Positions 26,701 to 54,474 of a stretch of DNA of 64,000 bases are shown here, piece by piece; the first letter of the stretch is position 1, and each line of letters opens with the position of its first letter. The notes under the pieces are model-generated. The model was not told the DNA's origin. It was given only the letters and a program-made list of their open reading frames with translations, and did not search any database. The position numbers were made by a program, and so were the translations under genes. Origin of the DNA: Medicago truncatula (Eukaryota; Streptophyta; Magnoliopsida; Fabales; Fabaceae); assembly GCF_003473485.1 (NCBI RefSeq), contig NC_053045.1:4490501-4554500 (forward strand), in the 5' to 3' direction.

Positions 26701-27368
26701 CTAAACATTTAACTTAACTTCTTAAAACTTTTAGCTTGATCAAGTGAGCTACCAATCTTCAGAGAGATTCGATCAAAATTGGTGCTGGCTAGTGAGCTAC
26801 CAATCTCCAAAGAGATTCTATCAAAATTGGCACTGGAAAAAAACAAGAGATAACAAATGTGTTTCGAAATTCAACTCATATAAACTTTTGCTTATTTTTT
26901 GTCAAATTGACTCAAGTATGCCACCATTTAATCTTTAGAATGAATAAAATTGTAAGTTTATCGATCGTTGTTGGTATTTTAGATGATTTTATAGTACTAA
27001 TATACAATGGACCACCATAAAACTTGCTTTAAAAGGATTCTAAATTTTCATTTTTTATTTTGTCCATAAAGTATTAGCTCAATATTAAGAGTTTGATCTT
27101 GTAATCTTAAAAGGATAATTTGACAAGTGAACATCATTTTCTTGCCGTTGCCAATCAACCTAAAATTAAATTAAATTTCAGCTGTTAATTATTGTCGCGG
27201 TCCCTCTCTTTTTCTTATAGCTGAGAAAGCGAGAGAAAAAAGTCAGCTAAATAAATCGAAACAAAAGATTGAAAAAGTGACAAATACAGCAAGACACATT
27301 GCACAAAAGTAGGCTCAAAAGGGATTTAAATTTCTATGCCCTTTTTACGTTCTTTTCTATCACTTCAA
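23706..27368. other. Noncoding spacer downstream of ALF4
   Basis: The first few hundred bases are probably the ALF4 3' UTR. The rest is AT-rich (including an (AT)n at about 24766-24781 and several T-runs) with only short chance frames. A 48-bp perfect-length tandem pair sits at 26743-26838. No gene or mobile-element ends were recognised before the Helitron terminus at 27369. Confidence 0.5.
26743..26838. repeat. 48-bp tandem duplication
   Basis: Two adjacent 48-bp units (26743-26790, 26791-26838) share AGTGAGCTACCAATCT and GATCAAAATTGG-type phrases with a few mismatches. The region is noncoding. Confidence 0.8.
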
Positions 27369-27440
27369 CTAGTCGAGATACCCGTGCTACAGCACGGGTA
27401 GCGCGGCTTTGCCGCGCTGTACGGCGCGGCTTCGCCGCGC
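27369..27440 (-). terminator. Helitron 3' terminus with three stacked hairpins
   Basis: On the plus strand: CTAG (27369-27372), CGAGAT spacer, hairpin ACCCGTGCT/AGCACGGGT (27380-27399), then two near-identical GC-rich hairpins GCGCGGC-TTT-GCCGCGC (27401-27417) and GCGCGGC-TTC-GCCGCGC (27424-27440). In Helitrons the terminal hairpin acts as the stop signal for rolling-circle transfer. The two extra 7-bp stems are a duplicated additional structure and stand out from the AT-rich surroundings. Confidence 0.9.
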
Positions 27441-27696
27441 TTATCGACAGGGTACGTTCCAAAATAATTACGTTTATTGCGGATAGTGAAAAAATGAGTT
27501 GCTTTCATATATTAGAAGTAGATAATTGCGGAAAGTTGCTTTATTAGGCACCAATTTGATCATTTCAAAAGACCCTGCTACAACAGTAGTAATAATTATA
27601 AAGAAAAGGAAATATAAATTTATTGTAAGAAGTACATAGGAAAACATTTGATAGTCAAAGTTACACAATAAATTTAGCAATAAGAATAGTAGACTT

Positions 27697-28643
27697 TTAA
27701 TATTGTCTAGTTAATCTAAATACAAAAATGATGTTTTTTGCCATGACAGAGTCACACTTAAATTCTAGAAGAGTCCCAGGAGCAATGCGATTGCTTAAGC
27801 AAAATCTTCTCCATCCACTTCCAATTATAACAATTGTGGTATTTGTTTGTGGATCATTTATAAATAGCAATTTACATATTGTGACGTTGTTAGCTGTTCC
27901 ACATAATCTAAGATATTCATGGTTTTTAGCTTGTAAAAAGTTGCCAAGATCAGTTGGTAAAATCTGTAACACCAAAGAAATGATATAACATAGTGAAATA
28001 TTTATAGAGTTGTATAAAATGGAATCTGTAATAAGTAATATTAGAAAATAAAATATAAATATATAAAGGCTTACCAATTTTGAACTAACAATTGAATTTT
28101 CTGGAACTGTGAGTTGATATGTTAGATCTCGAGTAATGCAAGTAGTCAATCTATGGTAACGTGGATATTCATTTTTTGGTGTAGAACCATCGAATATTTT
28201 GATTTGGAATACACTATGACCTAAATATGTGAAAGACATAAGTGGATTCAATGTGATATGATAAAAATCTCTAAATTGATGCCAACCGGTAGTAAGTATT
28301 GGTATGGTGAGGATTTTGTTAAATTCAACTTGATGACAATTGCCAATACCATCTTGTAGCATCCATTGTTCTTGTAGTTCATCGAAATATTCTGCAACAA
28401 AAAGTGGATCTAATTCGCAAATAATCTAGAAAATAAAAAAAAGTATGTTAGTGGTGTAGCATGTAAATAAAACTGAAGAAAGAGATATTGAGAAAATTTA
28501 TTAAGTTATGTTAGTAATACCTCTGTGCAAACAGCTAAGAAAGAAGGTCTATTGGATTCAATTGTCATCAATGGAGCTCTGCTGGATTGCCCTTTTCTTT
28601 GATTTGATGGTAGTTCACTGATAGAGGAAGCACTGGACTCCAT
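27697..28643 (-). CDS. B3-domain-like protein 2 carried by the Helitron
   Basis: Three exons: 28643-28521, 28425-28075, 27963-27697 (41 + 117 + 88 codons plus stop), all in phase, 246 aa. The N-terminal 41 residues are polar and serine-rich (MESSASSISELPSNQRKG). Exon 2 has a B3-like core (W--LQDG-GN-HQVEFNK...IPILTTGWHQFRDFYHI). Exon 3 has a second, clearer B3 pattern: ILPTDLGNFLQAKN, then GSGWRRFCLSNRIAPGTLLEF, matching 'LP..F' and 'GW..F...N.L..GD...F' of plant B3 folds. B3 domains bind DNA in nuclear transcription factors. The protein shares exon layout and sequence with its neighbour at 29139-30114, so the pair arose by tandem duplication. It is the last gene before the Helitron 3' end. 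Its role in the element is unknown; promoter binding or end recognition would be speculation. Confidence 0.78.
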
Positions 28644-29138
28644 TGTTAGTGGACTGAAAGTTAAATGTTTACAACAATTTGAATGAAAAATATGATACTG
28701 AGATAAGTGAGTTGGTTTTTGATGGAAGGTCTATTTATATGTATGAAGTAGAGATAATGAAAAGTAGTAGAATAAGATATGTGAAAAGCAACTGTTACAC
28801 TTATTGGAAGATGCAAAGGCTGAAATAAGGCTGAACACGTCTCTGTTGGTGGCTGAATAGTCAATCACGGTTGGTTGGCATATTGTAACAGTGTATGAGC
28901 TGCATTAAAGCTTACGTGTAATAAGCAATAAACATTATTTATAAAAGTTGTTAATAATATAAGGTAATATACAAACATTATAATGTTTAAGTTACACAAA
29001 TAAAATGCTAATTAAAAGAGTTGTACTAAAATATTAGACAATAATTAGGTTCAAATAAAAAAAAATAGTCTAGTTAACACAACAACATTACATAATTGTT
29101 AATTTATTTAATAAAAGCACATAATAAATACATAAGTT
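28644..29138. other. Spacer between the two B3-like genes of the Helitron
   Basis: AT-rich, no ORF of note. It should hold the promoter of the downstream B3-like gene and the 3' flank of the upstream one; a TATATAAA-type run read on the minus strand lies near 28733-28742, about 90 bases before the ATG. Confidence 0.4.
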
Positions 29139-30114
29139 TCACTGAATAGTATTTGAAGTAGACCCTGATCCATGGATGGAGAGTTGATAAACATGGCACA
29201 TACAATGAGGACTATTTGTAGTAAATTTGAATCGGATGATTCCTGGCTGGAAATTATTTGCTCGGCATAATTTGTCCCAGCCCACTCCCAATTCAACAGT
29301 CGATTTTTCATTGTTACAAATAAAGACTTGAAACGCTTCAAATGTTCCTTGATCATGGCAGCAAGCAAGCATCTCATACTTTTTTTTTTTTAGAAACTCA
29401 CCAAAATGGTTTGAAATTCTCTGTAGAATAAAAAAATTAAAGTTAGACAGAACATGTAATTATATTTAAAATATAGAAAACAAAAAATTAAAGGAAATAA
29501 GGAATATTAATACACTAATATTAAAATATAGAAAACAAAATAAAAAATATTAAAAATGTATAGTAATAATTATATAATTGATGAACTTAACGATTGTAGG
29601 CCTTTTCAAGAGCATATCATTAACCCCTTGATCAAAGAAAAATGTTTCTTTTGGAAGGAGACTACGACTATGAAATTTCGGTAATGTCTTTGGATCATCA
29701 ATTTCTCTTAACATGCAAATGGCAAAGAGATCTATGTCATAGAAAGAGAACACAACTTCAGCATTATCAGGAATTTCGTGGTATTCCTTAATCTCCGCCC
29801 AGCCATCTGTTATTGTTGGAATATATGAGTTTTTGTTGAACTTGAGTTCATGAAATCCTCCTTCTTCGTTTAAAAGTTTCCATGTACCCCTGAGGCAGTG
29901 ATGATTTTTGTTGACAAACCTTTGATCAACCTCAGCATAGTTCTAATTTGAAATAAAAAAAAATTATATAGATGTTATTATTGATTAAGAAGTATGAATG
30001 AGGCAAAAATAATTTATAAGAAGAATGAATTAAAACCTGAAATGCTAATCGAACCACCGAAAAAACCTCAATTGGATCAGTTTGAAGTTTCGTTATAATT
30101 TGTTGTGCATTCAT
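29139..30114 (-). CDS. B3-domain-like protein 1 carried by the Helitron
   Basis: Three exons: 30114-30037, 29942-29592, 29420-29139 (26 + 117 + 93 codons plus stop), 236 aa, all in phase. An upstream in-frame ATG at 30162 would add 16 residues. Exon 2 (117 codons, exactly as in the neighbour) contains GTWKLLNEEGGFHELKFNK and PTITDGWAEIKEYHEIPDNA, a B3-like 'W...G...GW...' arrangement. Exon 3 contains HFGEFLKKKKYEMLACC and VELGVGWDKLCRANNFQPG followed by IRFKF, matching exon 3 of the paralogue. This is a two-module B3-like protein. The donor after exon 2 (GTTAAG) is acceptable but not strong, and that boundary is the least certain. Placement between RepHel and the paralogue, same strand, makes it a resident gene of the element rather than host flank. 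Confidence 0.75.
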
Positions 30115-30162
30115 TTTTCTCTGGCAATTTTGAGTTGATGAATGGTATGATATTGCATTCAC

Positions 30163-31179
30163 TACTATATATAGAGGAAATATAAATATTATTAAATTAT
30201 ATAATTCAATATGTTATAAATTTTTGTAGTTGATTTGGTAAGGATGAAACCAAAATCGTCTCTCACCTTGTGATAAGATCGTACAATACATTTCACTAAA
30301 AATAAGAACATAAATGTAGGTGATTTGCCAATTCAAATAGCTAGACTGTGCTCTCTTAAACTTTTGACGGATAGCACATGGTATAAGCACGTGATATTGT
30401 GAAATGTAGTAGTGAATGTGTGCACAATAGGACAAATTCAAGAAATGTAGTAGTGAATGGTGTACAATAAGACAAATTCAAAGCTGCAGGTGTTATATTT
30501 GTGTACTTTGTTTGGTGCCACTACAACCATTCACATGTCCTATATTTCTCCAACATCTTACTGGTACTTTGACTAAAAATAAGAAAACATACATGTTGGT
30601 TTTATTGATGATTTGACAATTCAAGTTGTAATACTATTCAAGTATAGAAGATGTGTTATGCATGCAAGTTGGGTACTTACAAAGTGCAGGTGTGTAGCAT
30701 GCGTGTATCAGTAACTTGTCATATAGTGGAATTTGGATGCAATTATACTACTTCATGTGTAATATAAATAATTATGAATTGATTTAGCTGCAACCACTTT
30801 TCAAGACTTAAATATAAACTTTATAGTTGCACTTATAAGATAATAATATATGTCATTAGTTACACATAGTAAACTGAATTAATGTTTCCTCAATCAAAAT
30901 AGCAACAATGTCCAAGTTAAATGATAACTGTGGAAAAGTTCAATTGAACTTGGATGTTGTTACTATGTGAATCCATTAATCCGTTATGCACCTATATCAG
31001 GTCCAACCAAAAAAAGAAATGAAGTCAACTTCTACGTTGTTGCTATGTGAGTCCATTAATCTCTTGTGCACCTAAATTTAAAAAGGAAGAAGATAAGTAA
31101 GTGTAGTTTATGATCATAGGTAGATAAAATCAGTGCATCATAAATTTAAAACGAAATTGTAGGAATGAGTTAACTTACA
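30163..31179. other. Helitron spacer between RepHel and the B3-like pair
   Basis: No gene seen. It contains two short tandem duplications: a unit of about 40 bp around 30400-30480 (GAAATGTAGTAGTGAATG...ACAAATTCAA twice) and a unit of about 75-80 bp around 30945-31075 (GTTG.TACTATGTGA.TCCATTAATC twice). The spacer should include the promoter of B3-like gene 1. Confidence 0.5.
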
Positions 31180-34100
31180 TCATAGATTTTCAAAAACTTC
31201 CTTGTAGACTACATTCATGGTAGTTGACAGTGGGATTTTGTCCTTGTCATGAATTAATATCTTTAATCCAGCCTTACTCTTTACCCTCGACATAGCAACA
31301 TACAATTGACCGTGACTAAATACGGATGTTGGAAGATATAAACCTACACTGTCTAGTGATTGACCTTGAGATTTATTGATAGTCATGGCATAAGAAACTA
31401 TAATAGGAAATTGTCTTCTGGTAAGCTTAAATGGCCATGGGGATTGGGAAGGAGACATATCCATTCTTGGAATGTAAGTCATGCTTCCTATATTTGTACC
31501 TGACATGATTTTCGCTTCAAGAACATGGTTGGCCATTCTAGTAATAATAAGTCTAGTACCATTGCATAATCCCATTGATTGGTCAATATTTCTCATAAGC
31601 ATGATAGGAGTTCCTACTTTCAACTTAAGTTTATGACCAGGCAGACCTGAGCATCTCAGGGAATTTAAAAATTCTGGTGTTAAGATATCAAATGATTGAC
31701 ATTCATCATTGATCTCTGACCTGTCAATCTCATCAGAACTTAAGTATTCTTGTTCTTCTCCTATACAATATAATAAATATGGATTGGAGTCATGTTTCTC
31801 TTTCAGGTGTAAATACATAAATAATGTAATATATTCGTTTGAAAAGTTACCTGGAATCAATGAGAGTATGTAGTCATTTATTTCTTCAACACATTCTATT
31901 GTTGAAGCCAGAATTGCTCTTGATTGTAAGTATTGAGGATCATTGTAGTAATTCAAGAAATCTGGATATGTACTCTGGAATATAGCCTGTATTGGATTAT
32001 CAAAATCATGTATTAAAAACTCGGCTGGTATATCAATTTCCACAATTCCATCATTTGGCTCGGATAGCTTTCCTTCGCCAACTTTCAAGAGCCAATCAGA
32101 GAAGTTTTTCAATTCCTGATTATCTGATGACATTGCATTCTGTTGAAGACGCATATTTTTGGTCAGAGTAAGAACTTCACATGAATCCCATATGTAGGAG
32201 GAATTTATTGTAGCATTAATTATGTCTGAGCGATTGGCTCTGGGTATAACCGGTAATATTTGTCGGCAGTCACCTCCAAATACCACAACTTTTCCACCAA
32301 AAATTTTATCTGAGGACATAATGTCTCTGAGAGTTCTATCTAGAGCTTCAAAGCAAAACCTATGAGCCATGGGAGCCTCGTCCCATATGATCAATTTGGT
32401 CATCTTTAAAAGTTGTGCAAGTTCACTTGTACCATCTATATTACAGCTGGAGTTCTCAAAGGCAGGTACAGGTATCTTGAACTTAGAATGTGCTGTCCTT
32501 CCTCCTGGTAGCAAAAGAGATGCTATACCACTTGTAGCAACTGTCAAAACAATCTTACCACGGCTCCTTATCCTTGCCGCCAAAGTTCGCCACATAAATG
32601 TTTTACCAGTACCACCATAACCGTGTAAAAAATACACACCTCCTTTCTCTTTACTAACAGATGACATTATTTTATGGTAGATGTTGCGTTGTTCATCTGT
32701 TTCAAAAATAAGTAAAATTTGTGTCAATATAATAAACTATTTTGAAAATGTTCCAGAAAATGCTAAATTAGTGTATACCTGTTAATGTAGCAAAGAGTTG
32801 TTGAAATTCTGCATCCAACTCGTTGACATTGTAATTTAATTCATCATAAATCAGTCGGTTTCCAAGTTGTTCGACAATGTATCCTTCAGGATATGGAAAT
32901 CCTTTGTAATCCTTCAAACTCCTTCTATTTCTTTCCATGTGCCTTTCAATCTCGGTCAATGTTAAGTTTTTAATTTGTTCTTCAGTAAGCATTAAACCTT
33001 GCACATGATAAAAGTAATTAGATGCCAAATGTAGAAATTGATTTTTACATTTGAAGATCATATAATTATTAAGAGATGATAAGCAAAAAAGGCATGTTTA
33101 CCTGGATTGTTTGCCAATCTTCTTTGTTCATAAAGAATACCATCACTTAGCCATTGCCATGTTTTTTCCCAAACATGTTTTGGCCTGTGCATTGAACTTG
33201 CGATCAACAAAGTAACAAATAACAATCTAAGAAAAAGTCCAGAACCCCAAACACTTGCTTCTTTAATAGCAGCAATGTATTCCTTGTCATCCATCAAAAA
33301 TCCACTTGCAAAACATGCCTCTCTATAGGTGTCGTAACAAACATTGTTAACAGTTCTGATGTCCTCATAAGAGGTTGGTCCTTGGACTTTGGTTAACATC
33401 AGTCTCAAGTAGAACAATTCTCCTGTGGTTGGTGGCACCCACATCAACCTTCCTATTGCAAAACCCCTTTTCCTTGGTGTCCAAGTACGTTTAGCTTTGA
33501 CATATACAAATTTAGACACAAATTTGGCATATGTAAGTGTCTTAGCTTCAGCGTACTTAGCATTGCACTGCAGCCACGATGTAAACATCGACTCTGTAAC
33601 CGAAGGTCTCAGCATCACATCATCTATATGTTCATAATCATTGAAATATACTGAGTGTTCGCCTTGCAAATGAAAAAATAACCTTTCAACAGATGGTTTT
33701 CTTCCATGAATAGGATATTTAAATATGCGCCAGCAAGCTTCGCTTGGTGAAACATATCTACAATCAAGGTACTTCTTGATTTCATCCTGACTGTTATCTG
33801 GACTTCTACTTGTTGAACCATCAGACACAACAGCTGCAGTTATTCGATCATACCCTTTGTTAATGTATTTAAAGAGATACTTGATTGAGCTGGATTGGTT
33901 GCACCACTCCATGTTTATATGAGCTTCATACTTCATTAACAAATGCGGATTATATGGAACAACTGACCGATTGTCCAATGCAATTCCATTCTTTAAAATA
34001 TGACTGCCATTATCCCTTCTTCTATAGACAGGATAACCCTCATGATCAACAATACTTGATTCCTGAAATTTCTTTGGATAGAATTTAGTACAACGATCTT

Positions 34101-36852
34101 TGTTATTCATGCAAGGGGATTTTTTATTTGCTAATCCACACGGACCATGCATCATGTGATTGCCCACCAATGTGTACAATTGTGGATTGTTATCTGGACT
34201 TGGTATTTCAGCTGAAATAATCTTGTCTATGTCTTCTGGGGTAGGATATTTGCTTGACGGGTGCAAGAAAATAAGAAGGTGTGCATGTGGGAGACCTCTC
34301 TTCTGAAATTCAATAGTGTACATGTCTGAAATTTAGAAAATGAAATTATTTGTTAGCAAACATATGGCAATTATAAATAGGAGTTAATAGTATATTAGAG
34401 AGTTGATAGCTACTCACATGCAATGACCTTTCCAAGGAGGTGTTTTTTCGTCAAATCTTTAAGTAGTTGATCAAACTTGATTTTGAACACTCTTGCTATA
34501 ATATCAGGTCTATCATGTGGTTTAAGACCTTTTGATGTTACATATCTTTGAATTTCTGGCCAGTTTGGATTGCAAGTAAAAGTTATGAACAGATCTGGAA
34601 ATCCAACCGCACTCGATATCGCCATAGCATCAAAGTAAAGTTGATCCATGTACCTTCGACCACCGGTATAGCTCGAAGGTAACACAACTCTTTTACCTTG
34701 TTTTGATGACTCTGGTTGATCTTTGTTTTGGTTCTCACTCAAAGACTTGTATTTACCAACTCTTAGCTTGGATTGATTTTTCCTTAACCATGACAACCTA
34801 TCAGCTTCCATCATGGTAAAGCAATCAACCAAAAACTGTAGAAATAGCCTTCTTGCACACAAGATTGTCATCGGTTCAAAAAGTCTGCTTTGTAACCTAA
34901 ATGCCAACCACTCTCTAATTGTGAGATGAACCCTCTTTGGTTTTTTGCCTGTCTTTTTATCTCTGTGCAGAACATCATCTCTATACCCATCCTCACCATA
35001 CGGAAACAAAAGTGGATACTGGTAGGCGAGGTATGCAGGATGAAATTCATCTATCCTTTGTAGCTCACCACATTGTGTTTCCATAATGATATCCCTTCTA
35101 GGAGCATAATCAACATCACCAAGTATAAGTGCTGCAACTTCTGAAACTGTAGGTTGATTATAGATACGTCCGTCTGTTGTCCTCTCAGAGATGAGCTTTA
35201 ACTTCAAATTTTGGACATCACCTTCGCACAACCTATCGCGAGCCATTCTAAATGACTTAGCATGAACATTATTTTCATCAAGCATTTTTTGCAATGCTGC
35301 AATCATTTGTATATCCAGCTGGTTTGCATTGCTACATTAAGAACAAAAAACATATCAACATTCTATATCAATTCTAATATCATAGTTAATATTTAATAAA
35401 CTATAAACTTGTTATGTACCTGAGACCTTGTAGCCGATGTTGCAATTCATTTTCTGTATCATATATATATAACTGGGCAAACTTTGGGGGACGTCCAGGC
35501 ATTGGAATCATACTGCCAATTCGGTGACATGCTTGTCCTTGAATCCTAATTGTAGGTGGTCCTCTACCTCTCCTGATATTTTTGTCCACTTTAAATCCCG
35601 GTGAACTAAATGCAAACATGCTATTATACAACCTTATGTTTTGTTGGAAATGTTTACATTCTGATGAGTTCTGATCATACATCAAATGGCTGAGCAATGC
35701 AGGAGGTTTCCTTAAATATGGTAATTGAATAGTTCCATCACCACAACACAGTCCAAACTTAGGATTTGCACTTTCTCTAGATTTATTTTTCCTCTCTTGA
35801 TACCACATACATGCTCCACATCGTTGACACTCTATGACAGGATCACCAATATCATAATATCCTACATGTATTTATATAAATTAGGATACTTGAATATAAG
35901 AACTAAAATAATGTTCTCAATAAATAGACATGTATTAGGAATGTGGTAAAAAATAATCAATTTGACTGCCTTCAGTTTTATCTAAATTTAAATAGTGCAA
36001 AAAACTACCTTGAGTATGGTATTGAGCACTATCTCTGAATTGACTGCCTGTTAAATCATCTTCATCAGAAGATTCACTCTCACTCTGGTGAACTGCATTG
36101 TATGCTTCGAAATCTTCACTATTAGCAGAACCATCACTCTCATCATTGATGTCAACATTTTCAGCAGCAGTTGAAGATGATGCAATATTTGTATCAATCA
36201 TCTCAAATCTATTTAATAAATTTATTCCAGTCATATGAGAAGTAGAGGCTTTTCTTGGATTTCGAATCTGGAAGTTGGATGATGTTGGTTGCGTGAAATT
36301 TGGAGTTGTGGTTTTAGGCGGACTCTTTGACATTAGATCATGACTTCTAAGAATAGATGGAGAATCCATTGAAAATGGCCTTTGCTGTAATGTTGAATTT
36401 GTTCGATGATAATTTGGAGAATTGATTGGAAAAGGATGCTTTGGTCTGTAGAATGGATTACCTCTGGATGCATTTTTTGAATTTGGAACAGGACTATGCA
36501 ATTGTGGCAAGCTAGTTTGTGTTCCATGTTTGTATAATGCAGAAATATTTGACACAGAAGGATTTGGATTGAAGGATGAAAACGGTCTTGCAGAGGTTAT
36601 ATCACTTGAACTTGGTTTCTGATTGTCTCTTATTAACCTAAATGGAGGAATAAGTTTGTGGTTCCTGTTGGTAGATGATTGTGTGTTCTGTGATGTAAAA
36701 TTAGTGTTGGTGATATCAGCTAATGGAGTTGTAGAAGCTGAAAGATATGATTTTCGTCTCTTGGGAAACCTAGACAGAAGAATTTCCTTTCTTCTAAGTC
36801 GTCTTGCTTTAGCATCTTTGACATGAGCATCATCTTTTCCTTCATCCACCAT
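31180..36852 (-). CDS. Helitron RepHel (HUH rolling-circle nuclease + PIF1-type helicase)
   Basis: Seven exons: 36852-36009, 35861-35420, 35331-34418, 34325-33102, 32997-32779, 32696-31851, 31760-31180. Every junction is GT-AG and in phase; product 1689 aa. The N-terminal 280 residues are low-complexity and basic, then acidic. Next comes a zinc-finger-like region (ECQRCGACMWYQER, GLCCGDG) and the Helitron-like N domain. The Rep centre has HUH residues in KRGLPHAHLL (His747, His749) and the two-tyrosine motif KYLFKYINKGYDR (Tyr 883-892). The helicase has Walker A GYGGTGKT (Lys about 1246), Walker B LIIWDEAPM, GGDCRQILPVIP, and the C-terminal TINKSQGQSLD and YVAMSRV motifs, ending VVYKEVFENL. 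The nuclease nicks and transfers the element strand and the helicase unwinds it. No break is visible. The 90-bp intron 31850-31761 is a multiple of three and free of stops, so unspliced message would still read through with 30 extra residues. Confidence 0.94.
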
Positions 36853-37369
36853 GTTTGAAGTTTGAGTTGAAATGCAAAAGAACAAACTATTAGTATGTGA
36901 AATGATATTTGAGTGAATTAGCACTTTTAAACATTTTTGTTTCCCTCCATATCTAAGTAAAATGATATATTTGTAATAGTTAACATTTGAAATCTAAATT
37001 TAAAATTGATTTCAAAAATTTCACTTTCCCTCCTACTTGTCAAATGTGATTGAACACAGTCTAGAAATAAGAGATTACACCAAAATAGGCTATAGATAAT
37101 TAACAAAAAAAATAAATCTAATTATTATTATAAATTGTTTATATTATTTCTTACTTGAAATCAGCCTTGGAAAGACAACATATAGATTACATGATTACAT
37201 CTAGAAGTCAGATCAGCCATAGGCTTTTTTGTGTGATCACGTCTTCCAAAGCTAGAGTTTAGCTGGAAACTATTATAAAAATGATATAGAGGGAACAATT
37301 TTTGGTAGAGTCTACAACAATTGCAGCAAAGTATGGTGTACAATACCAAATCTATAATCTACTTTTTCA

Positions 37370-37463
37370 ATCACATTTAACTTCATATGAATACATAAAA
37401 GATAGCATAAATTATTATCACATTTAACTTCATATGAATACATAAAAGATAGCATAAATTATT
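37370..37463. repeat. 47-bp perfect tandem duplication
   Basis: Units 37370-37416 and 37417-37463 read the same (ATCACATTTAACTTCATATG...). The second ends right at the TA target of the MITE at 37465, inside the Helitron intergenic region. Confidence 0.85.
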
Positions 37464-37464
37464 A

Positions 37465-37722
37465 CTCCCTCCGTCCCTCAATAAATGACCTAGTTGACTC
37501 TGACACACATACCAATGCATATGTTTTATCTTTGATATCTTCAATTATCTAGTAAAAAAAATTATAAAAATTTAATATTTTAAAAATACTCATCGAGACG
37601 AATCCAACAACATCTTACATGATATTATTTATCTTTGTGAATTAGTATAAAAGTATGGTCAAAGTATGTCAAGTCAATAATGTATATTGTCAACTAAGTC
37701 ATTTATTAAGGGACGGAGGGAG
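37465..37722. mobile_element. Stowaway-like (Tc1/mariner) MITE inside the Helitron
   Basis: 258 bp with terminal inverted repeats CTCCCTCCGTCCCTCAATAA / TTATTAAGGGACGGAGGGAG and TA dinucleotides at both sides (37463-37464, 37723-37724). Terminal CTCCCTCCGT is the hallmark of plant Stowaway/mariner MITEs. It is related along its length to the copy at 45042-45290. It lies between RPA and RepHel and interrupts no coding exon. Confidence 0.92.
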
Positions 37723-38211
37723 TATCGTTTTATCAATTTAAGATATTTGTAATATTGTGGCTAAGTGTAATATAATTATCATTATGTTTAGAAAACCGAG
37801 AATTTATGGTTTAATGATGTTCATTATTGAAATATGGTTAATATAATTTCATCTATATATGGTAACTAATGTTCTATAATATCTGATACTATAATGATGT
37901 AATTTTAGTAAAAAGATTATTAGGTGTCACATATATATATAAACAGTTTGTCAGTCAATATTGTATTATAAATGTAGTAGTTAATATTGCATTTGAATTC
38001 AAGCACATAAGTAGTAGTAGTCATTCAAAATAGCTTGTGAGTGAAGTCATTTAACAAAAGTCACGATGTTTGGATAGGTTAGATAATATATTACATCAGC
38101 CAAGATAAGTGCAAAAGACCAACATATGGTACTTAGATAATTGTTCAGAACCAAAGGTCAAAGTTAACCAAAAAAAGGTAGATAAAAGGTGTTCTTGTTA
38201 AGGTGATCTGA

Positions 38212-40781
38212 TTAGTTCTTTGGCTCTAACTTGGGTTGTTTGGCAAGCTTAGTTGAAGAAAGTTGGGTTGCCTCAACATCCTGTGTAGAACCAACCCAAT
38301 CAACATCTTCCTGCGAGTTTCTTTTGGGAGGAGGGGTCGCAGAACTGCAGGAAGGATCGGTTTCATCACAGAGGGATTGCTGCACAATCATTCAATGGAA
38401 TATATGAGGATTCTCTATAATTTGAGTATTTTATGTAGGTTGCTAGTTGTTAAACACTTGGAAAAACTATTTTGAAAATGACATGTATACAAATAAATAA
38501 CTTACAGTGTTCAAAGTATCAACAACTAACTCTTGAGACTCCTTCACTTCATCAACCTTCACCTCATCAAGAAGGGCAAGCTTTGAACTGGCCTACAATC
38601 ATTGATGGAAAAAATTTAAAATATATTTGTATAGAAACTTCAAAATATTGACTACAATCACGAGGTTATATACCTCTCCCAATCCAAATTGTTTTTCAAG
38701 ATTTTTCAAAAGCCCTTCATTGTCACTAATTTGAATAACAGAGTACGGACTTGATCCAGGACAAGCTTTGATTTTGAAAACCTTCTGTGGGCACACAACT
38801 TGATCCAGAATTGGGGGATAAGCCGTTGGATGAAACTGACCAATCTATGAACTCATAAACATTAGACACATATCTAAAAAGGAACAACACTATATTTAGA
38901 AGTAATGGAAAATGTTAACCTCAACCAACTGTTCTTTCAGCTCCTGAGCAGACATTCCTATTATGGATGCAACATCATTGTCCCATAACAAAAACTTTGC
39001 CTTATCATTCTTGTAAACAGCTTCAACCTCAACCCTAAACCTGAAAATAATAATGCTCATATTTTAGCCTTTAATATGAATGTGTAACTCATCTAATTAG
39101 TTAATGTTAAAGTTAGATAATTGCATAACTTATATGACCGATCGAATAATATTGAATCTGAGGTAAATGAAACTTATGTGCAACTATAACCATACTAACA
39201 AATTCTTATAAATATCAACTCTACCTACCTGGGTTTTGCTTCATCATTAATATGGTTTCCTCTACATTTGAGTTGGCCATTATCCATCCTCACACCTTTA
39301 GTACAAAAATTGCATCCATCATAGATCCATCCATATTTGTTGGCATTGATCTTTTTGATTTCAGCAATAGTTACACAAATGGTTTCCTTAAACATACAAC
39401 AATAACCAAAACAGTTATACAATAGTTCAAAACAATATTGATATTGTTGATAATAGGAATAATATCTTACATGCATCACATGATTGACCTCAGAAAGAGT
39501 GAGAAAATGAGCCTTATTCATGATATCCCCTTGTTGAGTTATCTGAGATCCTTGGGTAAGTTGTGACAATTGTTGGCTTGCATTGACATCATCAATTGGA
39601 AGTTCTGCAAATCTGTGTTGAAGTATTTAAAAACATAGTAACAAATGTTCTCGAAAATTTATTGTGTAAGCAAAATTGTGTAAAACATACCTAGTCTTAA
39701 ACTCAGCAATTTCAGGAATCTCAGCATTGATTATGACCTTAGTTCCAGACCAGGTATTGGTGACACACAAAGGATAAATACCTAACAGCCAAAATAGACA
39801 TCAAGACACAGTATTACGATTATAACTATGGTGTAAACACTTGCATAACAATAAATAGATTAAGGATTATTATGCGAACCTTGTGCTTCTCTAGCCCTCA
39901 TATGCTTGAGAACAATGAAGATTGTTTCAGGTCCATTTGCCTGGTTAAAAGCATCAAAGAATTGCTTTGCAAACTCATCCCAAAGTGTGGCATGAATCAT
40001 TAGGCCACTGTATTTATACGCATGATATCAAATAAAGTTAGTATATACTTAGAATATGGATAAATTAATAAGTTTAACTAAAAACCACCTAGCATCCTTA
40101 AGAAGAAAAGTGACTGATCTTATGATTGTTCCCTTTTTATTTGTATTAGTAATATCTTGGAAAGCTCCAATGACATCTGGCAAGCACACACACACAAAAA
40201 ATATAAGTGTTGGTACATCTATATGCACAATAATAGAGAAAGCACTAAAATATTAACCTATGAGCAGATCATTCCTGTAGTTTCCAGCCAGAATCTCTCC
40301 AAAGTCTTTAAATCTGAAAGAGGCTAAAGGGATGGCAGGAAAATCAACTGGTTTGATAATGGTTGCTCCTGAAACTGCAAGTCTGAAAGGATGAGTCGAA
40401 GCTTTGACCGCAACATCGTTTTTCAATACCTTAAAATTTAGCATTGTATAAGTATTGTTCTCCTTCAAGATTTCTTTCCATTTAGCAAGTTCCTCATATG
40501 GAACAGTCAGCTGGATCATGTCATTCTGCATAAATATATCTTGTCTTAATCTTGAATCATTCTTACTAAAAATGCAGTATTTAAAATAATGTATTTAAGG
40601 AATAGAATATCACCTCCTTATCAGCAATTACCATCTCCAAGTACTGCTCCTGTCTGTACTTACCAGTAACACACCAAAGATCCATGACCCTGACAGCAAG
40701 ACTCCAAACATCTTTGGAGTCATTCACATCCTTCACATTGTCATAAGGACGAGTAATAGCAATCTTCTTTCCCTTGTTCAT
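38212..40781 (-). CDS. RPA70-like single-stranded DNA-binding protein of the Helitron
   Basis: Eleven exons: 40781-40614, 40525-40258, 40176-40089, 40007-39880, 39781-39691, 39612-39471, 39386-39229, 39040-38920, 38844-38674, 38592-38506, 38379-38212; all GT-AG and in phase, 529 aa. An N-terminal OB-type domain (DUF223-like; WSLAVRVMDLWCV) is followed by a second OB domain (LWDEFAKQFFDAF) and a C-terminal OB domain with a zinc ribbon (Cys320, Cys323, Cys336, His340 in GCNFCTKG...KCRGNH). The tail is acidic then basic. Replication protein A large subunits coat single-stranded DNA; plant Helitrons are known to carry RPA-like genes, presumably to protect the displaced strand. It is the first gene from the Helitron 5' end, on the same strand as RepHel. 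An in-frame ATG at 40838 also exists, but an acceptor TGTTAG directly before 40782 supports the start used here. Confidence 0.88.
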
Positions 40782-41633
40782 CCTAACAGTGGGCTTACAT
40801 AGATTAGTGTAGTTCACAATATGAAAAACAACTTTCATCGATGATTATATAAAGAAACGTATAGACATTCAGATTGTTCATAAATCCAGCAAAATCATCA
40901 AACAACTATCATCTGCTCATCATGAAACATACAACCGGCCACAGACCAAAAAAACACAAAGATTGATGAAAGATCATAACTTTTACAAAGGATTAAGTTT
41001 TAAAAATGATAGCTTGAACCAAAAACACACACAGCTCCTGAAGGAGTTTGAAGGATTACAACAAAAACCATTAATAAACACACCAAAAAATCCAAATAAA
41101 GGCTTTTACAAACTTTTTAACTCATAAATGAAAACTTTGAAACACTTAAACTTACATGCAACCATTAATAAACGAAAATGACAAAAAGAAGAAGAAAAAT
41201 AACCATTATACTTTTACAGATCTAAATGTTCTTCATAAAATAGATTGAAAATCACCAAATAAATGTGTAACAATCAACATGCATCACGAAAGGAAAGCGG
41301 AATACGGAGGAAACAAAACGAAATTGATTTTTCATACCTTGGAGGGAGGCAGTTGGATCGATTTTAGAAGAGGAAAGCAGATTTTAGAAGATGCTTGCGG
41401 TGACCGGTTTGATTCTGAGAAGAATATTGAAAGTTAAGAGAGAGTGAAAATATACAATAATGGAGTAGTTTTATCTCACTGCAACTGATATGATGGTGAA
41501 CAGTTTGGTTTCCTTCTCAATGAAGAAAAAAGGGTATAATAGGAGGGAGAATTGTATAGCCGTTGGACAATAGGGAGTAGCTGCAGTAATTTGCACTAAT
41601 TAGTCCAAAAGTGGTTTTGACAGCCATAATAGA
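40782..41633 (-). promoter_or_regulatory. Leader and promoter region of the Helitron RPA gene
   Basis: On the minus strand a donor CTCCAAG|GTATGA (exon end 41338) and the acceptor GTTAG|G just before the ATG suggest a 555-bp 5'UTR intron. The region just upstream (about 41380-41460) is pyrimidine-rich with TGTATATTTTC as a possible TATA element. This is inferred from signals only. Confidence 0.45.
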
Positions 41634-42804
41634 CATATATAACCTTGTAAATGGTAAGTGAAAAATTTACTGCAAAATCAGGCATGGGTAAATAAGTAAA
41701 AATGGTAGTTACTTCCTTTCATATATTGTAAGTTGATTGATTAAAAAATAATACATTGCCACGAAAAGTTGACATTAGGTGAATAATAATAACACTAATA
41801 ATAATGGATATATAAGGGTTGCGTAATTCAATTGGTTTGAGATAAAGTCGAAAGAGTTGGAGATCTTAGATTTAAACTCAATTGATATTACTTTTAAAAG
41901 TAAAATATGGAAAGATATTTTAGACGGTCAACTAATTATAATCGTGTCATCATTAGTAACGCTTGACTTTAATAATTACTTTTAATGTAAAACATGGATC
42001 ATGTTATCTTGTGTCAAGGGCACAAGTTAAGTAAAAATATAATATTTTTATGGGTCCTGCTAACCGGTGCCCTCGGGGCACTGGTTAATCATACCATAAA
42101 AGGGAATTATTACCATAAAAAGAAACTGTTTTTGACATTATTATAAATTAATTACATAATTTCAATGCATTAACTACTATATAGTTTCCTTTTTCATACC
42201 CTTAACCAGTGCCCCGGGGGCACCGGTTAGCATTTCCCTATTTTTATATTGGAAATGATAAATGTTAAAATTCTAAAAAGTTGACTGCACAATTTTTAAC
42301 GTATATTTTTTATATTTGGTTCAGCAACTTGTACTCGGTACGTACATGTTAGCAATCAACATTCTCCATAACAACTTTTTGTTATATTAACCATCCTTTT
42401 GAGGGAATAGAATTCCGTTAATCCAGAATTCAATCAAAAGATAAATAGTTTAATCAATAATTGTTCAACCCTAAAATCAAACTTAAATTCTCTCAAACGA
42501 TTCATCCTTTCAAAAATTTCATTAAGTCTAATCACATGCTTAAAACATATAGAATCATGATTTGTTAAAAAGAACATTTATATTCACTATGTATCAAAAT
42601 TAAACTTAAAAAAATATATCAACTAAAAAGTGAGTACTATTATTGTTTTGAAGCTAAAAAAAAAACAGTGTGTGTGAAGACTCAAAGATACAAAAATACA
42701 CATTCACTTTCAAGTGGCTCACAAACTCTTACTTGTGTCCCTGTGTGCAATGCATGTGTGTTCCTTTTCATGTTCCATCTATCTTACATGTTTTCATAGA
42801 AACA
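41634..42804. other. Spacer between the Helitron and the receptor-like kinase gene
   Basis: AT-rich. It contains one MITE (42052-42238) and, toward the right, the probable promoter and 5' UTR of the kinase gene. No other gene was seen. Confidence 0.5.
42052..42238. mobile_element. 187-bp MITE with 9-bp target duplication (Mutator-like)
   Basis: The ends pair as inverted repeats (GCTAACCGGTGCCCTCGGGG and CCCCGGGGGCACCGGTTAGC, near both termini). A perfect 9-bp duplication TATTTTTAT flanks it (42043-42051, 42239-42247). A 9-bp duplication is typical of Mutator-like elements. No coding capacity. The strong inverted repeats could form a hairpin. Confidence 0.9.
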
Positions 42805-43022: not shown

Positions 43023-45797
43023 AATTCAAATTAAAAAATCATTACTTTAACTAAATGCAAATAATGTTTTGTGGTTTTTTTTTTAGGCCATTGTTAGTGT
43101 TTTTTGCTATTTCTCATTATTTGGATAATTAAATCCTACCCTTTTTTCTTAAACTCTCTTAAATTGCTATTAATGGTTTGAAATTTGAAAAAGTTTTAAT
43201 TTTTATTTACAATGTATTTGATTTCATGCTTACTTGGTATATACTGTATGTTGATATTGATCAGATATTCATGTGGGGGATGAACATCAAAATATGGATT
43301 CACACATGAAAAAGGTAATGGCTTTTGTGGCAGCTAGCACTGGACTTGGTGCTATCATTTTGTGTTTGTTAAGCTTCTGGATTTTTTACATCAAGTATTC
43401 TTCAAAATCCAAAAAGAAAAACCTTCAAAACTCAGGTATTTTGTGTTAAATATGGTTATAGTCCCTATAATTATCTCGAATTTTGTTTTAGTTCTTGTAT
43501 CGCCTTTTTAGTCCTCGCAAATTGCAAAAATTGTGTCTATAGTTGTGATTTTTGGGGACTAAAAAGTGGTTACATAGATTGAAAACAAGAAAATGTAAAT
43601 TTTGTGTTGATTAAGAGTTGTCTGAAAATTTGTTGCTTTTTTTTCCCTGTTCTGTTTTTTGTATGTCTAGATGGTGAAAAAGGGCTTCGTTTAGTTCCAT
43701 TTTTGAGTAAATTCAGTTCTGTGAGGTTGGTTGGTAAGAAAGGGTGTGTTCCAATCATTGACTATAAGCAATTAGAAAAAGCCACTGGAAATTTCAAGGA
43801 AAGTAACATCATAGGTGAGGGTGGTTTTGGATGTGTTTACAAGGCTAGGTTGGATGATAATTTAGATGTTGCCATCAAGAAGTTGAACTGTGAATGTCAA
43901 TATGCTGAGAGAGAATTTGAGGTAATTCTTGCTAATAATTTATTTATTTATTTTGTTGACTTAATTTTCTTTTTTAATGAAGAGTTGGAAAAAACTGTAT
44001 TGAATAGTTGGATGAATTTCCAGAATGAGGTGGATTTGTTAAGTAAAATTCAACATCCAAATGTAATTTCTCTACTGGGCTGTAGCAGTAATGAGGATTC
44101 AAGGTTTATTGTCTATGAGTTGATGCAAAATGGATCATTGGAAACTCAATTACATGGTAAAAATATTGTTTCTGATATCTTATTTTATTGGATTTGACTC
44201 TTCTAAATTGCGCTCTTTCGCTTTTAAGACTAATATAAGTGATTATAATCGTTACGGAAAAATTTCACCAATGATTGTTATGTCAACCTTTATAGCACCG
44301 ACATTTCAATTTGAAGGTGTGTCTGTTGTCTGATACGTGTCTGTTGTCTGTTAAGTGTCAATGTCCGACACAACTAACTTTCGTGGTTACATTCAATTAT
44401 TGTTATTATCTGATAATAGAAGACTCGTATCAAAAGTTAATGAGGTCAATGATAAAATAATACTAATCACTATTTTCCAAAAATTGATTATGTGAAGGAC
44501 CATCTCATGGCTCAGCATTGACTTGGCATATGAGGATGAAGATTGCTCTTGACACAGCTAGGTGACCTTCTTTAATCAATTTCCATTCCTTTCCTATGTG
44601 CTCTAATGTCTATGTTTCTGAACACACTATTGATTAATGTCAATCAGAGGTTTAAAATATCTGCATGAGCACTGCTACCCTGCAGTGATCCATAGAGATC
44701 TGAAATCTTCTAATATTCTTTTAGATGCAAACTTCAATGCCAAGGTAAAAAAAGAAAGACTATGTTGAAATTCATGTATAAATTATTTTCCTTATATTGC
44801 TATACATTTATTGTGTTCACATTTATTTCTTTGTGACCCTATGACTTGTTGGTGAATTCAGCTTTCTGATTTTGGTCTTGCAATAACTGATGGGTCCCAG
44901 AACAAGAATAACATCAAGCTTTCAGGCACATTGGGGTATGTTGCCCCAGAGTATCTTTTAGATGGTATGCCAGCTCAACTTAGTACAATTTCATGCATAT
45001 GCATTGGTCATACAAGTTGATCTATGAATGGTTATTTAATACTCCCTCCGTCCCATAATACTTGACACAGTTGACCTTATTACGCATGCCAATGCATAAC
45101 TTTGAGCTTAAATATCTTGAATTATATATCATAAAAAATTATGAAAATTTGATATTTTGAAAATACTCATCAAGACGAATCAAACGACATCTTATATGAT
45201 ATTATTTATCTTTATATATTAATAGAAAAATACAGTCAAAGTAAGTTAGGTCAAAATTCAAATGGGTCATCTATTACGGGACAGAGGGAGTATATAGTTA
45301 AACTTTCAACAGACCAGATCTAAGATGTTGCTTTTTTTAATACCCTTATGCATGATGCATTAATTGTGTATGGTGGTTAAGGTGGGTTTGAAAGGGAAAT
45401 GGCATGCAGTTGGAATACTATGTATTCGCATACTCAGTATTCGGTACATTGGTGGCTGTTTGGTCAAGTTCGGACAATCTAGAAAATATGCTGATTTTTA
45501 TTTTTATTTCAAATCTAAAATACCAAGTTTAAATATGAATTGTTTAATCTTGATTCAATGGTCATTGATGTGTTGACTCTATGAAGGCACAATATTCTGA
45601 CCGCACGCAATCGAGATCCGTTTGAAAGGTATGAACTGTGCATCTTGTGCTCGTATGGGGCATGTACCTATTAAATTAGAGGAATGATATTTTGACAACC
45701 AATTTCCAACAACTTTTAGTGACAACTTTTACATGTCAGTCTCATATGTATCATTGCTCTAGGTGCTTCTTGTCAGTGATAACAAAATATTAATGAT

Positions 45798-54444: not shown

Positions 54445-54474
54445 ACCCGTGCTTGGCACGGGTGTCCATACTAG
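54445..54474 (+). mobile_element. Helitron 3' terminus in copy B
   Basis: A perfect 8-bp hairpin ACCCGTGC-TTG-GCACGGGT (54445-54463), TGTCCATA-type spacer, then CTAG (54471-54474) and T. This is a canonical Helitron end on the plus strand, of a different family from the large element at 27369 (different spacer and no GC hairpin pair). Upstream sequence from about 53780 (TACCCGCGGTTATCCGCCCG) may belong to it; the 5' end is not identified and there is no Rep coding sequence, so it is non-autonomous. Confidence 0.75.

Follow-up and report, generated by a model that had tools for sequence, protein, structure and literature searches.

A Helitron in Medicago truncatula very probably belongs to a lineage in which a cassette of B3-type genes is resident between RepHel and the 3' terminus, as judged from sequence comparisons across the genome. 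The element lies in a 64,000-nucleotide stretch of contig NC_053045.1 (positions 4,490,501 to 4,554,500; the whole stretch is referred to here as the window) and has four predicted genes, RPA, RepHel, B3a and B3b, in this order on the minus strand (Table 1). B3-like genes were found within 15 kb downstream of RepHel, on the same strand, at 22 of 171 collapsed RepHel loci, and so the B3 pair of the window element is not a one-off capture. An earlier note on this DNA had read the element as a seemingly intact Helitron with these four resident genes, and the order and unbroken frames that we obtained agree with that description.

Ends, copies and genes of the element

The window element has the features by which Helitrons are recognized: a RepHel with an HUH nuclease, a tyrosine region and a Pif1 helicase, and TC and CTAG ends with a 3' hairpin. 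It also has the RPA-like gene expected of a plant Helitron. The outermost sequence begins with TCAACTTACAATATATG after an A at the 5' end (41736) and finishes with CACGGGTATCTCGACTAG before a T at the 3' end (27369). The canonical 3' end described in the earlier note, hairpins followed by CTCGACTAG and a T, was recovered at 27369. The span proposed there (27369..41633) was therefore correct at its 3' end; its 5' end was rejected because three copies share sequence up to 41736, 103 bp further.

We searched the genome (430 Mb, 42 contigs; loci are named as contig:position, with contigs C1, C3, C6 and so on) for other copies. Two long copies with the same ends and interior but different flanks were found at C3:25137550-25123292 and C6:31568399-31584625, and are called the C3 and C6 copies. 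The C3 copy is 99.7% identical to the window copy in both aligned pieces and the C6 copy 96.5-98.6% identical, depending on the piece. At noncoding sites the window copy differs from them at 14 of 6163 (C3) and 77 of 5787 (C6) positions, which at usual plant substitution rates would place the splits at about 0.1-0.2 and 0.5-1.0 million years, respectively. Recent activity, as suggested earlier, is consistent with the few differences from the C3 copy, and we regard the window element as a plant Helitron that moved recently. The C3 copy lacks 108 bp of RepHel, a multiple of three. In the C6 copy, a B3a intron holds a 2.2-kb insert and the B3a reading is interrupted by one stop; RepHel has two stops and small gaps, and B3b has an insert of 19 bp.

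We conclude that the B3 genes are internal to the element, because the long copies share both ends and all four genes and have different flanks, and because an empty site was recovered for the C3 copy. This copy is inserted in a host repeat. When its two flanks are joined, they align across the junction with uninterrupted copies of that repeat, for example at C5:11979975 (88%), C3:45527157 (85%) and C4:59882641 (81%, starting at base 29). Two of these three repeats read GAGTTTTA directly followed by TTTTATATAAAAG where the C3 locus holds 14.3 kb; in the third, four additional bases precede the junction and one change follows it, the junction itself reading TTTA directly followed by TTTTATATAAAA. 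These sequences point to insertion between A and T with no target duplication. The window copy is flanked by A and T, and the C6 copy by a T on either side. The earlier note had named two findings that would speak against its reading, family members lacking the B3 pair and a boundary of the element falling between RepHel and the B3 genes. B3a and B3b occupy the same position in both long copies, and such a boundary is ruled out by the shared ends of the three copies together with the C3 empty site.

A 120-base query from the 3' end gave 37 matches at 36 places, mostly partial. A B3 match lay less than 3 kb inside the end at 12 of these places, and on the wrong side or strand at none. Pairing of 5' and 3' end matches recovered, besides the three long copies, six short elements (1.1-3.1 kb) whose ends are both related to the window family (C1:27.08M, C1:2.32M, C3:39.31M, C4:37.48M, C4:45.63M and C5:36.71M); the short elements are presumably non-autonomous.

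All four gene models were predicted from sequence alone. Their introns are GT-AG, and the window copy has no stops in any of the four readings; phase is kept through every junction, as the earlier note had it. Its exon counts (11, 7, 3 and 3) were reproduced for RPA, B3a and B3b, and RepHel has six exons in our re-made model rather than seven. The key residues said to be kept in RepHel are indeed present, namely HAH, YLFKYINKGYD, GYGGTGKT and IWDEAP (Walker A/B) and the later helicase motifs. The RPA-like protein has further matches below cut-off to REPA_OB_2 (2.7e-5) and Rep_fac-A_C (5.9e-5).

Table 1. Positions in the window of the Helitron, its ends, its predicted genes and an insert.
Feature	Position	Strand	Description
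Whole Helitron	27369..41736	-	14,368 bp; 5' TC...CTAG 3'; A and T flanks; ends common to the C3 and C6 copies
5' terminal 120 bases	41617..41736	-	Begins TCAACTTACAATATATG; 18 genome matches, full-length (120) in three, which are the three long copies
3' terminal block	27369..27440	-	Hairpin arms 27380-27399, 27401-27417 and 27424-27440, then CTCGACTAG and T; from sequence
RPA-like gene	38212..40781	-	11 exons, 529 amino acids; DUF223 (2.5e-16); zinc-like Cys motif
RepHel gene	31180..36852	-	6 exons (predicted model), 1719 amino acids; Helitron_like_N (1.9e-47), PIF1 (1.6e-92)
B3a gene	29139..30114	-	Exons 30114-30037, 29942-29592, 29420-29139; 236 amino acids; two B3-like domains
B3b gene	27697..28643	-	Exons 28643-28521, 28425-28075, 27963-27697; 246 amino acids; B3-like domains in exons 2 and 3
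MITE-like insert between RPA and RepHel	37454..37733	.	Terminal inverted repeat CTCCCTCCGTCCC

B3 genes beside RepHel across the genome

Counts from these searches are lower bounds, and a missing match is not equated with absence. The inputs were at least 126 and 151 RepHel matches and at least 112 and 152 B3 matches. From the 126 Rep matches, 23 short C-terminal pieces, each beside a kept one, were dropped to leave 103, which collapsed to 93 loci; 150 of 152 B3b matches and 150 of 151 PIF1 matches were used, and part of 132 RPA matches (short pieces from the same locus dropped) gave 46 loci. For comparison with host genes we hand-picked 57 of 151 host B3 matches to spread over clusters.

B3 genes placed elsewhere relative to RepHel were found at two loci, against the 22 with the downstream, same-strand arrangement. 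RPA lies upstream within 20 kb in 15 of the 22. Two of the loci, C5:24.10M and C5:24.11M, were counted separately but could be a single element, and the link at C1:23.7M may be accidental, given that an RPA match intervenes between RepHel and B3 there. With B3a matches alone, 19 of 93 Rep-domain loci had a match downstream on the same strand, one had it upstream and none on the other strand; random placement linked a mean of 0.09 and a maximum of 2 of 93 loci (2000 trials). None of the 57 hand-picked host B3 loci was within 15 kb of a RepHel match. Recurrence of the gene order had been put forward earlier as a check: RPA, RepHel and B3 genes do recur in that order in other families, but B3a before B3b is not universal.

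As a survey of termini, we scanned 54 slices taken from 37 B3 places, with 20 shuffles of the whole set as the control. A hairpin and CTAG followed by T occurred downstream of the B3 genes, in forward orientation, at 16 of the 37 places, and neither the reversed orientation nor the shuffles gave any; at the other 21 places a terminus was not found within the slice. By eye, these ends fall into six terminal types: that of the window (type 1); C1:31.53M, C5:23.73M, C7:14.33M and C8:25.3M (type 2); C4:34.35M, C4:41.5M and C6:22.67M (type 3); C7:13.2M and C8:34.9M (type 4); C5:0.155M and C5:17.98M (type 5); and C1:44.6M (type 6).

A Rep tree was built from 67 of the 93 loci (59 of 60 fetched stretches and eight search loci). 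One side of a branch with 100/100 support (23 rows) holds 16 of the 17 B3-linked rows, and the other side holds 1 in 44. This tree and the B3 tree were midpoint-rooted for drawing only, and some long-branch B3 rows may be misplaced.

Identity, selection and possible exchange of the B3 genes

The window B3b protein matches the Pfam B3 family (PF02362) above its cut-off (31.8 bits against 30.1), best over the second domain, and window B3a matches it below (21.2 bits). At E up to 0.1 this family was matched by all eight B3b proteins and by four of seven B3a-type proteins. The B3a and B3b families are related to each other across both domains (hhalign 99.7%, E 6e-27). Profile searches of the PDB gave no significant match. 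We hold with moderate confidence that the Helitron proteins are B3-type. They resemble host B3 transcription factors in a second domain that is B3 by Pfam; no Helitron B3 place was seen by eye among the listed PF02362 matches, for which 150 of 583 candidates were scored.

In the B3 tree, the 24 B3b-type sequences share one branch (88/96) and the B3a-type sequences are more divergent. Ratios of nonsynonymous to synonymous change (Ka/Ks) between families were simple counts on tblastn pieces with stops and gaps omitted, which favours low values; on this basis B3b gave 0.27-0.29 at Ks 0.66-0.98 for the window against C5:23.73M and C7:14.33M (one family), C4:41.5M and C5:17.98M, and B3a-type genes gave 0.19-0.54 at Ks 0.05-0.75 (15 usable pairs). 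Rows mixing B3a and B3b exons were left unused (for B3a, those of the window, C3 and C6; for B3b, those of C7:13.2M and C8:34.9M). At the level of sequence, these ratios show B3b and B3a-type genes kept as proteins, by purifying selection, between families.

The B3 cassette seems to have been exchanged among elements, with B3b the steadier part, because C6:22.67M and C2:30.0M have a B3b very similar to that of C4:34.35M and C4:41.5M (Ks 0.07-0.09) together with a B3a-type gene from a different branch, and because gene order differs. Rep and B3b distances are correlated (r 0.79 over 10 loci; none of 10000 permutations as high), also with one locus per lineage (r 0.46; 16 of 720 permutations as high), which suggests that co-inheritance is broad and not strict.

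Several observations weigh against a resident B3-type cassette. B3a matches DUF3303 about equally well (21.5 against a cut-off of 21.2), over partly the same stretch as B3, and the first domain is weakly B3, with 7 of 14 members matching at E up to 1 (best 9e-4). Structure models of single exons, made for window exons only, were poor (pLDDT 43 and 46), and a Foldseek search with the poor model of B3b exon 2 gave a best E of 0.14, which is not significant; seven of its top nine matches were B3 chains (TEM1, NGA1, ARF) and those at ranks 2 and 8 were topoisomerases. Among 39 B3b-type loci, 17 have a RepHel match within 15 kb upstream and 22 do not; at least three of the latter adjoin a Helitron 3' end (C1:44.6M, C4:45.3M and C7:46.16M), and some others look degraded. 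The order and number of B3 genes vary, with B3b first at C4:34.35M and C4:41.5M and three B3 genes at C1:31.53M. On the B3 side of the Rep tree, 7 of the 23 rows (C6:28.46M, C3:17.30M, C3:26.39M, C7:17.18M, C11:0.42M, C2:31.39M and C2:23.38M) had no B3 match nearer than 154 kb, or none on the contig, in three protein searches, and four of the seven have RPA and PIF1 matches (C7:17.18M, C11:0.42M, C6:28.46M and C2:23.38M). Nearer B3b pairs have higher Ka/Ks, at 0.47 (C1:19.86M), 0.65 (C3:16.03M) and 0.98 in two pairs that exclude the window, which would be expected if many copies decay once they have transposed. Between the window and C6 copies the ratio is 1.24 for RPA and 0.75 for RepHel, with 0.36 for B3a and 0.32 for B3b (10-11 changes each); the C6 copy is also the sole pair for window B3a, which has no usable pair between families.

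At C4:34.35M and C4:41.5M we also saw a third piece, a fragment of B3b with only the second domain, which lies after B3b and B3a and just before the 3' end.

Possible roles of the B3 proteins

By extension from known families, RepHel (an HUH nickase with a Pif1-type helicase) would cut at the TC and CTAG ends and peel off one strand, which RPA would coat. Less surely, the two-domain B3 proteins would be element-encoded factors that bind double-stranded DNA and act on the element's own DNA. The recurrence of B3-like genes in other elements suggests a benefit to the element rather than accidental cargo. It is quite possible, if a little short of probable, that the B3 proteins affect the transcription or silencing state of their own element and keep it expressed or unsilenced. 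We favour action on the element's own DNA because of selection between families, linkage to RepHel, the pairing of a steady with a divergent member, and the precedent of VANC. Like the B3 proteins, VANC of VANDAL transposons is a transposon-encoded, DNA-binding accessory protein with conserved and variable parts (PMC5735166; this and the other papers are cited from excerpts), and action on the own family is something that we infer for the Helitron. Unlike the window Helitron, VANDAL is a Mutator-like element, and VANC targets tandem motifs (PMC5735166), none of which were seen in the window element.

That the B3 proteins are an independent counterpart of VANC, combining self-recognition and anti-silencing, with the steadier B3b and an exchangeable B3a-type protein co-evolving with family DNA, is a tentative and rather doubtful extension. 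A VANC-like tandem array of motifs, sought by word search in the window element, was not found; this, like the related RepHel rows with no B3 match, tells against action on the element's own DNA. Only words of the terminal hairpin were far above shuffles; CCCTCC, GGAGGGA and AGTTACACA were slightly above the highest of 30 shuffles, GGAGGGA partly marking ends of miniature inverted-repeat transposable elements (MITEs). We set AGTTACACA aside as a VANC-like motif because it is dispersed and infrequent in other B3 slices (3 occurrences in 113,724 bases); it was also chosen after the fact. It occurs in the element at 27659, 28990, 30858, 39081 and 39369, that is, five times inside (0.35/kb) and five times outside (0.10/kb). 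CATGCA occurs at 0.70/kb inside the element and 0.56/kb outside. VANC is not known to be related to B3.

The main rival to action on the element's expression is that the B3 proteins aid transposition by binding subterminal DNA and guiding RepHel to the ends or to targets between A and T. The terminus follows the B3 genes in the same slice at all 16 places where it was found, and B3 is tied to one part of the RepHel tree. However, no B3 link is seen for seven of the rows in that part or for 43 of the 44 outside it, and strong enrichment is confined to words of the terminal hairpin; we consider this rival unlikely, though a serious contender. That the B3 proteins instead act on host genes, with an indirect benefit to the element through, for example, a changed germline or developmental state, appears improbable. 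The B3 domain is typical of host regulators, as is well established, and the first-domain profile placed the B3 protein At1g16640 second of two PDB matches (E 0.48 and 0.41, neither significant), but the divergence of B3a-type genes and their reshuffled order would better fit targets in the element itself or in rival elements.

We regard it as very improbable that the B3 genes are captured copies of host genes that travel as passengers with a single element and its recent copies. Gene capture by Helitrons is well known (PMC6431247), B3 genes are numerous in the genome (583 first-look candidates), and more than half of the B3b-type loci (22/39) have no RepHel nearby; against this stand the intron-bearing B3 genes in several families with different termini, the single branch of B3b-type sequences, the low B3b ratios against three other families, and the host B3 loci, none of which was near RepHel in the sample. 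Two adjacent elements, an RPA-RepHel Helitron beside a separate, non-autonomous Helitron bearing the B3 genes, are scarcely credible: B3 genes do occur near a Helitron end with no RepHel match (at C1:44.6M, C4:45.3M and C7:46.16M), but the same joint structure stands at three places with different flanks, the empty site lacks the whole 14.3 kb and excludes this arrangement for the C3 copy, and a pattern search of the element's strand of the window found a single terminus, at 27368.

RPA is named as the additional gene in many plant Helitrons (PMC4683698), and Helitrons are described with RepHel and RPA, with captured fragments or with unspecified additional open reading frames (PMC4683698, PMC6431247, PMC13317346, PMC9033089). 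B3 is not named in the excerpts of these four papers. Among the papers listed from the open literature, none appears from its title or the start of its abstract to concern Helitron B3 genes; Repbase notes and subscription papers lay outside this scope, and an earlier mention there is possible. The window element shares with the canonical plant Helitron the TC...CTAG ends, 3' hairpin, insertion between A and T with no duplication, RPA and RepHel (PMC4683698), and differs in having two resident, two-domain B3-type genes in the interval between RepHel and the 3' end. Extra coding parts are also known from Helentrons with an OTU protease and an AP endonuclease and from Helitrons with captured fragments; the Helentron extras have other functions than the window B3 genes, and captured parts are usually fragments (PMC6431247). 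The excerpted descriptions of plant Helitrons name RepHel and RPA, and element-borne genes of DNA-binding type would be a testable candidate for Helitron regulation, tractable given small proteins, a young family and B3 sets that differ between related elements. They also show that genes with introns can turn into lasting components of a Helitron, contrary to the usual picture of captured fragments.

Some further features were seen in and around the element. The insert between RPA and RepHel, which we take to be MITE-like from its terminal inverted repeat CTCCCTCCGTCCC, probably arrived after the split from the C6 copy, because that copy lacks 307 bp there. A perfect 47-bp tandem duplication (37370-37463) adjoins it. 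Just beyond the 5' end of the Helitron, at 42058-42232, an inverted repeat has 31-bp arms (97%) separated by 113 bp and may be a small inverted-repeat element. A second Helitron 3' end, of another type (ACCCGTGCTTGGCACGGGTGTCCATACTAG followed by T), lies at 54445-54473 on the plus strand, and a protein kinase exon (Pkinase 3.7e-14) lies at 43583-44197, also on the plus strand, about 1.8 kb past the 5' end of the element.

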